A DNA stretch of 36,613 nucleotides from a virus. Positions 4,214 to 22,703 of the stretch are shown here, piece after piece. The stretch is taken from IMG/VR virus record IMGVR_UViG_3300034418_000974, positions 1 through 36,613 of that record; one strand, 5' to 3'. The notes under the pieces were generated by a model. It did no database searches. It worked only from the letters and a program-made list of their open reading frames with translations, and was not told the DNA's origin. Numbering within the stretch: the stretch's first letter is position 1; the number at the start of each line of letters is the position of its first letter. The translations under genes and the position numbers were made by a program.

Positions 4214-5998
4214 TTATAATGCGATTGCCATAGCAATAGCAAATCCTGGACTTGCTGCGTCTATGCCTGTTAATTGACTACCATCTACAGCAGGTAGTTG
4301 TGCTGATCCATTTAATTGTACTATATTATTAGCAGATGTTCCAACGTCTAAAGTAGCTGCTGTTCCTAGTCCAGATATTTTAGCATTACTAATACTATTA
4401 ACCGCTAAACTTATAGTTCCTGAAGATGTAATAGGTGAACCTGTTACAGTAAATTCTGAAGCACCTGAATCTGCTACTGCTACTTGTGTTACTGTTCCAC
4501 CAGATGATGGAAACACTTTAGTAAATGTAATATCAGAAACTCCTAATGAAGCTGAGGTGTCAGTTGTGCAAAGGTATAAATCATCACCATTAGTTGTACC
4601 TTCTTGGACTACTACAATTTGTCCAGCTAATTCTGCAATAGTATCATAGTCTGTATTTCTAGTTGCAGCACCACTTGCTACTACATCATAAATACCATTA
4701 GCACTTGCTGAAGTTTGGTTTTTAACCAAAACTTTATTACCTGTTACTAGTGTAATACCATCTAAGGTATCACCATTTTCTAAATCAGTAGATAAATTAA
4801 TATTAGCAGTAGTTGCTACTCTAACGATAATTCTTGTTTTAAGTCCTGTTACTAAATTATCAACGTAAGTTTTAGTAGCTGCATCTGAACCTGCACTTGG
4901 ACTTCCTAATCCTGTTACAGTTCCGCCAGATATAGAAACATTGTTTGCATTTTGTACTGCAATAGTTCCTAATCCTAAAGTTGTTCTTTGAGCAGAAGCA
5001 TCTGCGTCATCTAATAGAGCTTTACCAGCAGTTGTTAAATCATAAGTTGCTGCTGTGCCTGAACCAGTAAATTGAATACCTTTATCTGCTGCTGAAGTTA
5101 ATCCTGCAATTGCTTGTAGTTCAGCATCATATGCTTGTACGTTAGTTCCAATTGCTACACCTAAATTAGTTCTAGCAGTAGCAGTATTGGTTAAGTCAGA
5201 TAAATTATTTGCTTTAACAAGTTTAGCATCTAATTGAGTTTGGATATTAGAAGATACATTATTTAAGTAACCAAATTCTGTATTAGAAATACTACCATCA
5301 TGAATTTTTGTTGCGTCAATTGTTGCACTAGCATTAATGTCTGCATTAACAATAGTTCCATCAGCGATCTTAGCTGAAGTTACACTTGAGTCTGCTAGTT
5401 TGGCAGTTGTGATTTGTGAGTCTGCAATATGTGCAGTATCAATAGAACCATCTACATAATGTTCTGAGTCAATACTATCATCTGCAATTTTAGAACCATT
5501 GACAGCATCTGCTGCAATCTTGGCCGTAGTAACAGATCCATCTGCTAATACAGAAGTTGAAACTGAACCTGCTGGTATAGAAGTATTAGTTGCAGATAAA
5601 GCACCAACATAAACTGTAATGCTTTCATTTTGAATTGCACCTGAATCTAAAGTTACATTAACAGTTGTATTAGTTGAAAATGAAGATGAACTAATTGTTC
5701 CGTAGATAGTTCCTGTAGAAGAGCCTACAATTTTAACTCTACGATTTGCATGATAAAAAGATGTTACGTCTGTACTTGCTACAGTAAATGATGTTGCACT
5801 AGCATAGGCAAAAGTAAATGACGCATCGCCATCTCCATAAATAACCCATTGACTATCGTTATACCATTCTCTTGTATCTGCAAGAATAGCTCTTAATGCG
5901 TTATTAATATTAGAAGGTAACATACCTTCTGCAATACTGACTCCACCTACTGCTGTATTATTTGCTGCTGTACTTGAATAATCTTTAATTCCTGACAT
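4214..5998 (-). CDS. Major tail fibre with decapeptide repeats
   Basis: A 594-residue fibre. The N-terminal ~45 residues ('[20 protein letters not shown]') form the usual virion-anchor region of podovirus fibres in this group. Residues ~142-238 are about ten copies of a 10-residue repeat of the form '[I/L]ADgSV[T/D]taK' (for example '[10 protein letters not shown]', '[10 protein letters not shown]'), typical of a triple-stranded beta-helical shaft. Residues ~245-400 hold '[18 protein letters not shown]' and '[20 protein letters not shown]', seen in many fibres. The C-terminus is Ser/Gly-rich and ends '[11 protein letters not shown]'. The role is host attachment; the receptor is unknown. Confidence 0.85.
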
Positions 5999-15584: not shown

Positions 15585-15724
15585 TATTTTTTCTTACCTT
15601 TCTTAGGAAAACCTTTTTTCATATTAGCATAAGCTTTAGCACTAACAGTGCTTTTGCTTTTAGGTCTAGATATTCCTAGTTTTTTTCTTTTGTTGATATT
15701 GTCGTAGAGTCCTTTTTTTTTCAT
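15584..15724 (-). CDS. 46-aa basic protein
   Basis: A small gene in a perfect one-base-overlap chain. It starts 'MKKKGLYDNINKRKKLGISR', continues with Lys/Ser-rich sequence, and ends 'MKKGFPKKGKKK'. The 'KKGLYDNI..KRK' beginning belongs to a very common tiny phage protein family (often 'KKGLWDNIHAKRKR') of unknown function found near terminase genes. About 40% of residues are Lys or Arg. Start and stop are both fixed by TAATG junctions at 15724 and 15584. Confidence 0.85.
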   Translation of the reverse strand: MKKKGLYDNINKRKKLGISRPKSKSTVSAKAYANMKKGFPKKGKKK

Positions 15725-15885
15725 TATTTTTTTCCTTTTGCTGCTAGTTGTTGAAATTTTTTTTTACCATATTTTTTTCTTCCAATAGCTGCAGCAAGTG
15801 CTTTTGGATCACGTACACCTTGTTTTTTTAACTTAGTAGTTAATTGTTTAAATCTAGTTCCTGTTCCTAGTTTTGCTTTTTTCAT
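15724..15885 (-). CDS. 53-aa basic protein ('GTGTRF..AAAIGRKKYG')
   Basis: MKKAKLGTGTRFKQLTTKLK, then 'GVRDPKALAAAIGRKKYGKK' and 'FQQLAAKGKK'. This matches a widespread tiny phage protein ('GTGKRFAALKKKLAKKGA..PAALAAWIGRKKYG'); its function is unknown. The ATG at 15885 overlaps the upstream stop (ATGA) and follows GAGGAGGACATAAT, the strongest ribosome site in this part of the operon, so it is probably made in quantity. The TAA at 15724 overlaps the next ATG. Confidence 0.87.
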   Translation of the reverse strand: MKKAKLGTGTRFKQLTTKLKKQGVRDPKALAAAIGRKKYGKKKFQQLAAKGKK

Positions 15886-16016
15886 ATTATGTCCTCCTCA
15901 TCTAAGTATAGATCATCATCATTATCAAGTATATCTTCTATCTTGGATATGATCTGTTCTTGTTCATATTGCAATTCTTTAAGTTCTTCAAGTAGATGTC
16001 CTAAAGTTTTTCGCAT
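15882..16016 (-). CDS. 44-aa acidic helical protein
   Basis: MRKTLGHLLEELKELQYEQE followed by 'QIISKIEDILDNDDDLYLDE' and a short end. It is a strongly acidic coiled-coil-like peptide, opposite in charge to its neighbours. It could pair with one of the basic proteins beside it (inference from charge). The start shares one base with the upstream stop (16016) and its TGA overlaps the next ATG at 15885. Confidence 0.75.
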   Translation of the reverse strand: MRKTLGHLLEELKELQYEQEQIISKIEDILDNDDDLYLDEEDII

Positions 16017-16887: not shown

Positions 16888-16915
16888 AATTTTTTTCTCC
16901 AGTATTTTTAGGATT

Positions 16916-16924
16916 ATTATAGCA
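16916..16924 (-). promoter_or_regulatory. Candidate late promoter (extended -10)
   Basis: Minus strand TGCTATAAT is a perfect extended -10 element (TGnTATAAT). A transcript from it would begin near 16909 and reach the GGAG and ATG of the first late gene (16887). No good -35 is present, which is acceptable for extended -10 promoters. It implies use of host sigma-70 RNA polymerase. Confidence 0.6.
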
Positions 16925-16974
16925 AACCAATAATTATAATTCTACTATATGTAAACAAACCCCCCCTATTTATT

Positions 16975-16987
16975 TGTAGTATCTACA
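16975..16987. promoter_or_regulatory. Dyad TGTAG-TAT-CTACA
   Basis: A perfect 5-bp inverted repeat with a 3-bp centre, between two runs of C. It lies about 50 bp upstream of the late -10 element, in a position suited to an activator or repressor site. The early HTH protein (18745-19029) is a possible binder; this is a guess. Confidence 0.4.
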
Positions 16988-17055
16988 TTACCCCCCTATA
17001 TATCATTCAACACCTATATCCAATATCGCTTGGGGTAACTTACAAACCCGTCATT

Positions 17056-17106
17056 CGCTGTTGCTCATGACTTCTTGTTGTTACTCATGTAACTCGCTGT
17101 TGCTCG
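17056..17106. repeat. Three ~20-bp imperfect tandem repeats (iteron-like)
   Basis: The core TGTTGCTCATG (from 17059), TGTTACTCATG (from 17079) and TGTTGCTCG (from 17098) recurs with a spacing of 20 then 19 bp. The first and third also share a preceding CGC. Period close to two helical turns puts all copies on one DNA face, as in iterons or operator arrays. They are too short and diverged for CRISPR. Confidence 0.6.
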
Positions 17107-17119
17107 TTGCATTGATATT

Positions 17120-17158
17120 GGTAAGGTTTCACCTTGCCCGCTATCCTTACAGGTAAGG
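17120..17158. promoter_or_regulatory. GTAAGG/CCTTAC dyad cluster
   Basis: GGTAAGGT-TTC-ACCTTGCC (17120-17138) is an 8-bp inverted repeat with one G-T pair. A perfect dyad, CCTTAC-AG-GTAAGG (17145-17158), follows. Together they give four similar half-sites in 39 bp, upstream of the early operon. A protein-binding operator is likely; the first dyad could also fold as RNA. Confidence 0.5.
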
Positions 17159-17184
17159 AAGCGGTCAAGTTGTATGATTATAAG

Positions 17185-17210
17185 ATATCCACATCTGATT
17201 GTTATCCCCA
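17185..17210 (+). promoter_or_regulatory. Two DnaA-box-like sites
   Basis: ATATCCACA (17185-17193) and TTATCCCCA (17202-17210) each match the TTATCCACA consensus in 8 of 9 positions, same orientation, 17 bp apart. Chance matches are not rare in AT-rich DNA, but a pair in the strand-switch region of a phage that also encodes a DnaA-type DNA-binding domain is suggestive. The second overlaps a TGTTAT-CCCC-ATAACA hairpin (17200-17215) ending 20 nt before the first early ATG. Confidence 0.4.
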
Positions 17211-17235
17211 TAACATAACAAGAAAGGATAATCCC

Positions 17236-17403
17236 ATGTATAAAGTAGTACACACAAATGAGGCACAATACTCACTATTTGATATAAGTGAATTGCCTAT
17301 AACACCACTACCAAACAAAAAGAAACATCCTCATGATCTTAGAAAAGAACAGAAGAGGAACATAATAAGTACTTATCTAACTAAGTATAAAGCAAACAAA
17401 TAA
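17236..17403 (+). CDS. First early gene, 55-aa protein
   Basis: MYKVVHTNEAQYSLFDISEL, then 'PLPNKKKHPHDLRKEQKRNI' and a Lys/Tyr-rich end. The start was set at 17236 because AGAAAGGA precedes it; a longer in-frame ATG at 17134 lies inside the control region and has no ribosome site. Not recognised. A leading early gene of a phage often encodes a host-takeover peptide; here that is inference from position alone. Confidence 0.7.
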   Translation: MYKVVHTNEAQYSLFDISELPITPLPNKKKHPHDLRKEQKRNIISTYLTKYKANK

Positions 17404-19843: not shown

Positions 19844-20385
19844 TGCAAGAATTAGATTTAATTAAAGATTATCAAATCAAAAATAAAGATGATTATGGAT
19901 GGTTTGATGAAAGATCAAGATTAGAAAAGAAATTTAATAACAATGATCTTAAAGAAATATTAAATGAATTTAAAGATGAATTTAAAGAAGCAGGTATCAA
20001 CTATTTAGTTGGTCAGTTTGCTGGAGGTCATGATGAAGGAGGTTTTGATAAAGTATATTTTAGCAATAAACCTGAAGAAAAAGAAATAAAATACAATTTC
20101 AGTAAAAAATGGATATATCAAAATAGATTGTTTTTTTATAGAAATAAAAACAATGTTTTGTTTTATCATATAAAAGAACATAAACCAATAGATCTAAATG
20201 ATATAGATTTAGTAGAAAATTTGTTATGGAAGACAGGATGTTTAGAACGATTTGGAAGCTTTGCTTTTGAAGGACATTGCAGTGGTACAGTATATTTAGA
20301 TGTACATACTGGTAAATGGACTATGAGTGGAGAAGAAACATTCGAAACATATGAATCATTTGATGAGGAAGGAGAAGCAGCATGA
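19840..20385 (+). CDS. DUF6878-like protein
   Basis: 181 residues. 'YLVGQFAGGHDEGGFDKVYF' (~residues 55-74) and the C-terminal 'FGSFAFEGHCSGTVYLDVHT' (~137-156) are the landmarks, recalling DUF6878-type phage/plasmid proteins with a 'GGxDeG.i..v' motif and a 'G.F..EG...GTV.LD' beta hairpin. This is family resemblance from memory. It overlaps DUF932 by four bases (ATGA), so the pair is co-translated; DUF932 and DUF6915 genes are often found nearby in phages and plasmids. Acidic C-terminus. Confidence 0.65.
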   Translation: MMQELDLIKDYQIKNKDDYGWFDERSRLEKKFNNNDLKEILNEFKDEFKEAGINYLVGQFAGGHDEGGFDKVYFSNKPEEKEIKYNFSKKWIYQNRLFFYRNKNNVLFYHIKEHKPIDLNDIDLVENLLWKTGCLERFGSFAFEGHCSGTVYLDVHTGKWTMSGEETFETYESFDEEGEAA

Positions 20386-21275
20386 GTGCAGAACTAGCAG
20401 TAGAAAAAGCATATAAACTATATCAATTACCAAATGATATAGATTTTAAAGTAATTAAAAAACCTATTTACTTTTTAGATTCAAATGAAGAATCTAGACA
20501 AGAAATAGAAATACCTAATAGATATGCATTAATCAATGAAGCAACTAAACAACCATTAAGTGTAGTATCTAATAAGTACAAACTAAGAACATATAGAGCT
20601 TTGGTATGGAAAGTTAGCAATGCAATTAGAGAAGCTAATATGACTGATAACATTACTATCAAAGATTGGGTAAATCCCAATGGTACAAAATTTAAACGTG
20701 ATGTTTATTTCTGGAATAATGGTATTCCAGTAAAAGACAATTACAAAGAAAAAGCTGTACCGCACTTGAGAATATATGCAAGTTATGACTCAAGTTGGGC
20801 AGAACAAATTATATTTGGTTCTGTATATGTTCTTTGCATGAATGGTTTAGTTAGACCAGAATGGCAATTTAAAGTATATAATAAACATAGTGCTGCAAAT
20901 GACACAGATTACACAGTCGAAATGTTTAAACAAGGTTTAAATGCTCAAAAAGACTTAGGTAATGAGTTATTTAAGTACATACAACGAAAGGTAAGTAACA
21001 ATGAAGTCGAGTATTTATTTAAAAATACAATCGCTAAATTGGAAACTACGCTTAATGCAGGCCGTTTCAGTGATAATGTTATGTATGATCTTAGCAATTT
21101 ATGGGATAAATATAGGAATAGCTATGGTAATACAGTTTTTGCAGTATACCAAGCAGTTACTGACTGGTCTTCACACCCTGTTACAAGAGGTTCAAAGGAA
21201 CTTGTTAAAAGACGTAGAGAACAAAAGGTAATAAATATGTTAAACAGTAATTACTGGTTAACATTAACTAATTAA
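20382..21275 (+). CDS. DUF932 protein
   Basis: 297 residues. The family signature is clear: 'KQPLSVVSNKYKLRTYRALV' (~50-69), 'LRIYASYDSSWAEQIIFGSV' then 'YVLCMNGLV' (~127-157), and the late 'VYQAVTDWSSHPVTRG' (~250-265). DUF932 proteins are widespread in phages and plasmids and lie near replication or recombination genes; their biochemical role is not established. It follows the DUF6878-like gene by overlap and is followed by the structured noncoding region. Confidence 0.88.
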   Translation: MSAELAVEKAYKLYQLPNDIDFKVIKKPIYFLDSNEESRQEIEIPNRYALINEATKQPLSVVSNKYKLRTYRALVWKVSNAIREANMTDNITIKDWVNPNGTKFKRDVYFWNNGIPVKDNYKEKAVPHLRIYASYDSSWAEQIIFGSVYVLCMNGLVRPEWQFKVYNKHSAANDTDYTVEMFKQGLNAQKDLGNELFKYIQRKVSNNEVEYLFKNTIAKLETTLNAGRFSDNVMYDLSNLWDKYRNSYGNTVFAVYQAVTDWSSHPVTRGSKELVKRRREQKVINMLNSNYWLTLTN

Positions 21276-21667
21276 AAATTTTGGTGCTTAGTGCGTAATA
21301 CTAGTTTAGTAAAGTTAAATGACAACGATTATATGCAAACGCTTGTACAGCCAAAAAAAACAATGTTACCATGACAACAAAGTGTGTATAGGTAATAGGT
21401 AATGCTAAACTTACGGTTCACACCATTGTTTAATAGAGGTGATACAGAAAACCTGTATTTTGCGTATTCTCATAAACTTTGTTTATGGCCCTGGTAGAGG
21501 GGAACACAAAGAAACAGAACTACCAACGTAAAATACAGAAAACCTACTAGCTCAAAAATTGCCGCTATTTAATAGCCGCCTTATAGAGCAGTTAAAATAC
21601 TGTGATCGGTTAGGGTATGACCAAGGGGAGTTTCCCAAACTATACCCACAACAAAGAAAGGAACAAA
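21276..21667 (+). ncRNA. Structured noncoding region (candidate ncRNA or long 5' UTR)
   Basis: 392 bases with no credible gene. Plus-strand RNA can form: P1, CTGTATTTTGCGT (21453-21465) with ACGTAAAATACAG (21526-21538), 13 pairs including one G-U; P2 inside it, CATAAAC-TTT-GTTTATG (21471-21487); P3, TGGTAG (21492-21497) with CTACCA (21520-21525), directly abutting P1. Alternatively ATACAG (21442-21447) pairs with CTGTAT (21453-21458) and breaks P1. Downstream are GCTAT/ATAGC (21564-21576), CAGT/ACTG (21589-21602) and a two-level stem (21613-21647). The sequence ATACAGAAAACCT occurs twice (21442, 21533). No known RNA class was recognised. Confidence 0.6.
21613..21647 (+). other. Two-level hairpin before the DUF6915 gene
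   Basis: GGGTAT (21613-21618) pairs with ATACCC (21642-21647), enclosing GGGA-GTT-TCCC (21626-21636). It ends 20 nt before the ATG at 21668, with AGAAAGGA between, matching the hairpin-spacing rule of the other early genes. Confidence 0.65.
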
Positions 21668-22012
21668 ATGGCAACACCAGTACATCATGCAATGTCTAGT
21701 GTAAATAACTGGAAAGGTACATTAGAAGATTATTTACCAATACATAATTGGTTTGACGATACCAAAGCTTATCATCCAGATTTTAGGCATAGAGCATTGC
21801 GACATCATTCTCATGGAATTAAAGAATGTATTGAAAAATTTGGAGATTACATTATAAATTCTGATGGTAAAAGAGTACCCACAAAATTAATAGCAGAACA
21901 ACATGTTGTTGAAGATTGTGGATACATACCATCATTATCAGATTGGCTTAGGCACATAACGCCACAGACGTTTATGTACCAAGCCAAAAAATTATCAAAG
22001 GAGGTAGCGTGA
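21668..22012 (+). CDS. DUF6915 protein
   Basis: 114 residues: 'MATPVHHAMSSVNNWKGTLE', 'DYLPIHNWFDDTKAYHPDFR', 'HRALRHHSHGIKECIEKFGD' and 'EQHVVEDCGYIPSLSDWLRH'. This matches the DUF6915 family ('A..SVKK.GG...DYLPIH.WFD..K....D.RHRALRHH..G'). The His-rich core suggests metal binding. The start was placed at 21668 for AGAAAGGA; an upstream in-frame ATG at 21617 falls in the hairpin region. Function unknown; the family is common in phages. Confidence 0.88.
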   Translation: MATPVHHAMSSVNNWKGTLEDYLPIHNWFDDTKAYHPDFRHRALRHHSHGIKECIEKFGDYIINSDGKRVPTKLIAEQHVVEDCGYIPSLSDWLRHITPQTFMYQAKKLSKEVA

Positions 22013-22170
22013 AGTTAGATAACGAACTTAGAGAAATGGAAATAATACGTAGAGTGAGTGAAGAAGCTATAGAAGAAATGAATTTAAAATCACAAAAATT
22101 TAGTGCAATTAAAGATTTTCTTCATTGGATAGAGTTAATGAGAAATAAACTTTTAAAATATATGAATTGA
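22009..22170 (+). CDS. 53-aa helical protein, GTG start
   Basis: (M)KLDNELREMEIIRRVSEEAI, then 'EEMNLKSQKFSAIKDFLHWI' and a basic tail. The GTG overlaps the DUF6915 stop (GTGA) and follows AAAGGAGG by 4 nt, which decides the start. Predicted all-helical, charged. Not recognised. It is followed after 8 bases by the DnaA-like gene. Confidence 0.7.
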   Translation: MKLDNELREMEIIRRVSEEAIEEMNLKSQKFSAIKDFLHWIELMRNKLLKYMN

Positions 22171-22178
22171 GGGACACA

Positions 22179-22703
22179 ATGAAATTAATACACAAACAAG
22201 AATTAAAACAAAGATTAAAACCTGTACAATTTCAAAACATATCTAAAGAAGATAGCTTTATGTACAAAATGGGTGTTAAAGCTGGTTATAGATTAGCTTT
22301 GCAACAACTTAATAATAATAAAGAATCATTACCGACAAGAACAAAAGTAGAACATATAAAAAGCAATTATAATACGGCAGAAATGAACAGATTAATTGAA
22401 TTTGTAATTAATTCTGCATGTCTACAATTTAATGTAAATAAAGATAATTTATTAAGTGATAATAGATTTAGAAAATATGTAAGACCTAGATCAGTTATAA
22501 TAAATGTATTAAGACATGTATCTAAATTCAGTACTCTACAAATAGCTACTGCAATTAATAGAGATCATACAACTGTATTACATCATCTTAAATCCAAAGA
22601 TAATAAAAATTATTGTTGGAAAGATAGTCCAGAAGGTAAAACCTGTTGGAAAGTATATGACATCATTAGTCATCAATTAACGCAAAATAAACAAATAGCA
22701 TAG
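22179..22703 (+). CDS. DnaA domain-IV-like DNA-binding protein
   Basis: 174 residues from the ATG at 22179 (GAGGGA before it). Residues ~69-145 match the C-terminal DNA-binding domain of DnaA: helix 'LIEFVINSACLQFNV', then 'RSVIINVLRHVSKFSTLQIA' (~104-123) and the signature loop 'INRDHTTVLHHLKSK' (~126-140), equivalent to DnaA 'gg.dHsTVlha...i'. There is no AAA+ ATPase, so it is not a full DnaA. Freestanding domains of this type may bind DnaA boxes to start replication, recruit or block host DnaA, or regulate genes. With no polymerase or helicase seen here, a role in recruiting host replication is attractive but inferred. Confidence 0.82.
   Translation: MKLIHKQELKQRLKPVQFQNISKEDSFMYKMGVKAGYRLALQQLNNNKESLPTRTKVEHIKSNYNTAEMNRLIEFVINSACLQFNVNKDNLLSDNRFRKYVRPRSVIINVLRHVSKFSTLQIATAINRDHTTVLHHLKSKDNKNYCWKDSPEGKTCWKVYDIISHQLTQNKQIA

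Follow-up and report, generated by a model that had tools for sequence, protein, structure and literature searches.

The window analysed here, from a marine phage, covers positions 1 to 36,613 of IMG/VR record IMGVR_UViG_3300034418_000974. Between a DUF932 gene (20382-21275) and a DUF6915 gene, whose ATG lies at 21669, it holds a gap of 393 nt (21276-21668). This gap had been singled out as the largest gene-free stretch of the genome, which is correct when ORFs of at least 50 aa are counted; raising the cut-off to 60 aa makes a 431-nt stretch (15585-16015) the larger one. A 28-bp palindrome (ATGTTAAACAGTAA/TTACTGGTTAACAT, 93% complementary) lies at the end of the DUF932 gene, at 21237-21264. 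On the other side of the gap, 22167-22703 codes for a protein carrying the C-terminal domain (domain IV) of DnaA; in pelagiphages, its relatives bear the annotation of DNA replication initiation protein. Elsewhere in the window, a divergent intergenic region at 16888-17236 contains C-rich and A+T-rich stretches, with DnaA-box-like words (ATATCCACA, TTATCCCC) near 17187-17210, and is a possible origin or early promoter region.

The gap contains the following elements:

21276-21357, + strand: module A, a conserved noncoding leader that begins directly after the DUF932 stop codon; its ends, TTTTGG and CCAAAA, can pair
21358-21436, + strand: module M1, a stem-loop domain with the closing stem AAACAATG/CATTGTTT (21358-21365/21424-21431); absent from the sister phage L002
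21437-21602, + strand: the whole pseudoknot unit, from the S1 5' strand to the S2 3' strand, enlarged in the window by a probable inserted arm
21437-21439, + strand: S1 5' strand AGG, partner of 21452-21454
21442-21454, + strand: first copy of the 13-nt direct repeat ATACAGAAAACCT
21445-21447, + strand: S2 5' strand CAG, within the S1 loop, partner of 21600-21602
21452-21454, + strand: S1 3' strand CCU, first copy
21455-21545, + strand: 91-nt extra arm containing the 13-bp stem, a probable insertion into P2; absent from other units
21533-21545, + strand: second copy of the ATACAGAAAACCT repeat, at the end of the 91-nt arm
21546-21592, + strand: P2 of the window in its likely pre-insertion form (ACT/AGT + GCTC/GAGC), corresponding to the GCTC..GAGC arm of L024
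21593-21599, + strand: third loop UAAAAUA, invariant
21600-21602, + strand: S2 3' strand CUG
21605-21650, + strand: module C, the 3' hairpin GGGTATG..CTATACCC, without a U run, ahead of the DUF6915 ribosome site

Comparison with close relatives shows the block to be an indel. L002, about 85% identical to the window, fuses window position 21357 to 21605; despite missing the intervening 247 nt (21358-21604), it retains module A, module C and both flanking genes. L024, found through its DUF932 protein, has module A, a different block and module C. Module A is found at the equivalent place with 97% identity in L002, 86% in L024 and 79% in L013; module C is identical in L002 and about 85% identical in L024, and hairpins occupy the same place in other units. 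The blocks of the window and L024 have a common core, GTGATACAGnAAwCyTGTAT...AGyTAAAATACTGT, and the same core stands at another position in L017, after an SSB-like gene. L002 and L013 are both without the block, which is thus dispensable in the window's phage group. Module A forms a second conserved noncoding element (GTAATACTAGTT, TTTTGG/CCAAAA), and its identity between the window and L002 is above that of the adjacent coding DNA (about 80-88%).

A first search pattern, which fixed only the 5' half of the core, recovered nine viral contigs, and AAAATACTG lay downstream in all nine even though the pattern had left it out. Two relaxed patterns enlarged the set to 59 loci, a figure that includes near-duplicate contigs and corresponds to about 35 distinct unit sequences. 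The 59 contigs, aquatic phage sequences with the window among them, each carry one copy of the unit, and the gene contexts vary. Two relaxed-pattern matches (L051 and L056) were dropped as chance matches, the CAG..CCT core being absent from them. A pattern search of bacterial and archaeal genomes gave eight matches, about the number expected by chance on a rough estimate, none of them with the 3' motif. No convincing unit was found in the cultured phages HTVC106P, HTVC027P, HTVC033P, HTVC023P, CRP-125, CRP-4, CRP-2, 023Pt_psg01 and DSL-LC04 or in part of Seuss; weak matches there (E 0.03-0.1) were taken as chance. At least one carrier, L071, has a terminase that shares 61-73% identity with the terminases of 023Pt_psg01 and HTVC023P-type pelagiphages.

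The conserved core is an H-type pseudoknot, in which a loop pairs with a downstream strand and both helices show compensatory change. In the window its strands lie at 21437-21454 and 21600-21602. The core consists, in order, of S1 (AGG/CCU), whose loop reads UGAUA-CAG-NAAW, a variable hairpin P2, the loop UAAAAUA, and the 3' strand CUG, which pairs with the CAG of the S1 loop to form S2. S1 occurs naturally as GGG/CCC in L045 and L063 and as AAG/CUU in L024. When both sides of S2 were left free in the pattern, the variant UAG/CUA was found in ten contigs (three distinct sequences); the single S2 exception is L088 (CAG/CUA). The pair counts are AU 32 and GC 2, and GC 33 and AU 1, for S1, and CG 30 and UA 3, with the one exception, for S2. 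These compensations (AU to GC and GC to AU in S1, CG to UA in S2) fall at positions that were free in the search pattern, and each is supported by a small number of distinct sequences (2, 1 and 3). P2 has a closing G-C pair followed by U-G or C-G; its length and sequence differ between units, and it shows covariation. The loops UGAUA, AAW and UAAAAUA, in contrast, hardly change across many phages. UAAAAUA is invariant in alignment A2, most of the loop having been fixed in the two relaxed patterns, and it is present in nine of nine contigs from the pattern that did not require it.

Over 34 distinct sequences, 97.6% of cells are paired, against 92% in shuffled and at most 53% in slid controls, in a comparison where several core pairs are invariant and hence uninformative and where the patterns used to find the loci already specified much of the core. 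The same sequences contain 21 compensated cells against 5 expected, counted as sequences and not as events, in an alignment fitted to the model. A MAFFT alignment that was not fitted to the model gave the same picture, with 13 against 2.6. GU cells number 42 and AC cells 2, and because GU lies so far above AC, the folding strand is the + strand RNA. The sequence around the core folds strongly, with a median z of -3.4 (47 loci). In L017, a very stable series of hairpins lies upstream of the core at 4456-4690, and a 435-nt stretch there has a z of -6.

In the window itself, fold energy relative to dinucleotide shuffles gave z values of -2.6 for 21421-21650 and -3.4 for 21440-21550; a differently bounded 475-nt stretch of the region reached only -1.5. 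The earlier note had described a 13-pair stem enclosing two further helices in a three-way junction. The stem (21453-21465/21526-21538) is present, 92% complementary, and included in the minimum-energy fold together with the 21471-21487 hairpin. The helix 21492-21497/21520-21525, which the junction requires, is absent from that fold, and the stem with its inner arms was found in no relative. The duplication of ATACAGAAAACCT at 21442 and 21533 is there, as had been reported. Model R1 matches the window unit as two halves, 21437-21478 (E 3e-4) and 21530-21604 (E 2e-3), because the 91-nt arm, flanked by ATACAGAAAACCT, sits inside it. The window copy is the weakest member of the family, at 18-22 bits per half, and agrees with it in order, in spacing in the L024-like context and in both invariant strands. 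We infer that the arm is an insertion into P2, accompanied by a 13-nt duplication and specific to the window. Either copy of ATACAGAAAACCT would allow S1 and S2 to form, and it is as these two possible pseudoknot registers, not as a switch between ATACAG and CTGTAT, that the notion of alternative folds may be retained. The earlier note had counted it against an RNA if relatives kept the flanking genes without compensatory changes in the stems. Here the outcome is mixed: L002 has the flanking genes without the block, and elsewhere compensatory changes do occur, in helices that had not been identified before. No conserved peptide was found in the block, which is missing from L002 and whose core sits between genes.

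The proposal of a multi-helix noncoding RNA outside the known families holds up well. The gap matched no Rfam family, cmscan of the window, 12 loci and L071 gave no hit to the GOLLD or ROOL covariance models, and neither ARAGORN nor Rfam detected a tRNA or tmRNA in the window. The riboswitch models of Rfam, among them preQ1-I and SAM-II, gave no match to 21200-21750 at E up to 10 or to L071 at E up to 3. Similarity searches of phage records with the gap and with the L071 RNA returned nothing, and those with L029 and L030 returned only marginal, chance-like matches. A literature search with most subscription journals outside its range found no published account of the RNA. The pseudoknot-core RNA is a structured RNA family absent from Rfam.

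Among known RNAs, preQ1-I (RF00522) is similar in fold only: it too is an H-type pseudoknot of small size, short-stemmed and with a third loop rich in A. The new RNA differs in having a hairpin inserted after S1 and no constant downstream gene. In outline, the closest resemblance appears to be to GOLLD, likewise a large phage-encoded structured RNA without an assigned function, with a conserved part and variable flanks (PMC12286853). The new RNA has a smaller conserved core, and its modules are exchanged between phages. ROOL, an RNA of phages and prophages that contains several pseudoknots and has no assigned function (PMC12286853), differs in its core. GOLLD and ROOL often lie near tRNA genes, whereas ARAGORN, run on the window only, found neither a tRNA nor a tRNA island.

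The cultured pelagiphage HTVC027P encodes a related mosaic RNA that lacks the pseudoknot core and has modules in common with L046, L068 and L077. The Rfam Flavobacterium-1 RNA (RF02976) sits in the 3' part of this mosaic (L096, 3477-3597), just upstream of gp34 and gp33; its model gave one match in HTVC027P and none in the window and 11 other virus records. HTVC027P gp33 is GP88-like, and gp34 and gp33 form a separate expression cluster that is high at 6-9 h (PMC12753301). The position of this cluster downstream of the related RNA is suggestive only. A published RNA-seq time course of HTVC027P infecting SAR11 makes the expression of this relative checkable from existing data.

The modules around the core are exchanged between phages, either through ordinary phage recombination or through some dedicated process. 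A 60-nt segment of M1 (21365-21424) is 100% identical in L060 and L072, with which we found no other DNA or protein similarity of the window; M1 stands before the core in the window and after it in L060 and L072, on different closing stems. Blocks common to several loci sit at differing distances from the core or on opposite sides of it, and two recurrent modules were seen by eye (TGATCCCTGGTC...GACCTGGGATCA and AAAAAGTACGAGATGCCTGTCATGGTGGTACT). Near-identical GGGTGGGCCCCGCCCAC-type hairpins flank the RNA region, on one side or on both, in L048, L053, L066, L071 and L074.

Downstream of the core, the loci differ in both gene content and 3' end. A GP88 gene (PF17338) lies within 1.5 kb in 38 of the 59 loci, downstream in 30 and upstream in 8, some neighbourhoods being cut by contig ends; none was detected in the window. 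The downstream gene is not fixed, and the unit therefore lacks the constant downstream gene class expected of a riboswitch. In L066, L070, L076, L088 and others, a hairpin that ends in a U run and resembles an intrinsic terminator lies after the core. In the window, L024, L027, L047, L048 and L052, the hairpin after the core leads on to a ribosome site and then an ATG.

We assign a probability of about 0.58 to the reading that the gap encodes a trans-acting phage noncoding RNA with a pseudoknot core and exchangeable hairpin modules; among the options offered by the earlier note, a trans-acting phage RNA fits best. The RNA would be a discrete + strand transcript closed by a stable 3' hairpin, which would serve as an intrinsic terminator in some members of the set. 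Its action in an infected cell would most likely be in trans, with the invariant loop residues binding a single conserved partner, from host or phage, and the variable modules adding stability or secondary contacts.

Several findings count against this reading: some core pairs are invariant, the compensations come from few distinct sequences, L002 and L013 do not have the block, and the core is missing from the cultured phages examined. Moreover, in a number of loci, the window among them, the RNA has no U run and continues into a ribosome site and a gene, as expected of a leader. The pseudoknot and hairpin might then act in cis, controlling translation or stability of the next gene (DUF6915 in the window), possibly in response to a ligand, and known aptamers include H-type pseudoknots with A-rich loops. 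We consider this unlikely, at roughly one chance in four. The downstream gene varies between loci, in other loci an intrinsic terminator that does not overlap the core stands between RNA and gene, and no core strand overlaps a terminator or ribosome site, leaving no visible expression platform. We favour a trans-acting RNA over a riboswitch because there is neither a fixed downstream gene nor a visible expression platform.

Compact pseudoknots and hairpins could also block exonucleases and stabilise phage transcripts with no specific partner, as the tandem stable modules, the 3' hairpins and the weak sequence constraint outside the core would allow. This we regard as improbable, since the near-invariance of UGAUA, AAW and UAAAAUA exceeds what mere stability needs, and there is only one core per contig. 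A replication origin, packaging site or recombination hot spot, with the hairpins acting as DNA, would suit the nearby DnaA-domain gene and the recombining modules; we rejected it as very improbable on the GU and AC counts, which point to one strand folding as RNA, and no single replication or packaging gene consistently accompanies the unit. Least credible of all is the attenuator proposed earlier, which treats ATACAG/CTGTAT and the 13-bp stem as conserved folds that compete: the window could form either pairing, but CTGTAT is not kept in relatives (CCCGCT in L045, CCTGCT in L047), for which reason an early idea of ATACAG/CTGTAT as a conserved hairpin was also dropped, and the 13-bp stem is confined to the window.

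Large phage noncoding RNAs make up a short list, to which the pseudoknot-core RNA adds a family not yet on it. More tentatively, and at somewhat less than even odds, aquatic phages may draw on a common pool of self-folding RNA domains and recombine them around one invariant pseudoknot. The resulting mosaic noncoding RNAs would evolve in the manner of tail-fibre proteins, by shuffling domains, with host factors presumably exerting the pressure. RNA evolution through the swapping of intact domains between phages that are otherwise unrelated would, if true, be unusual.
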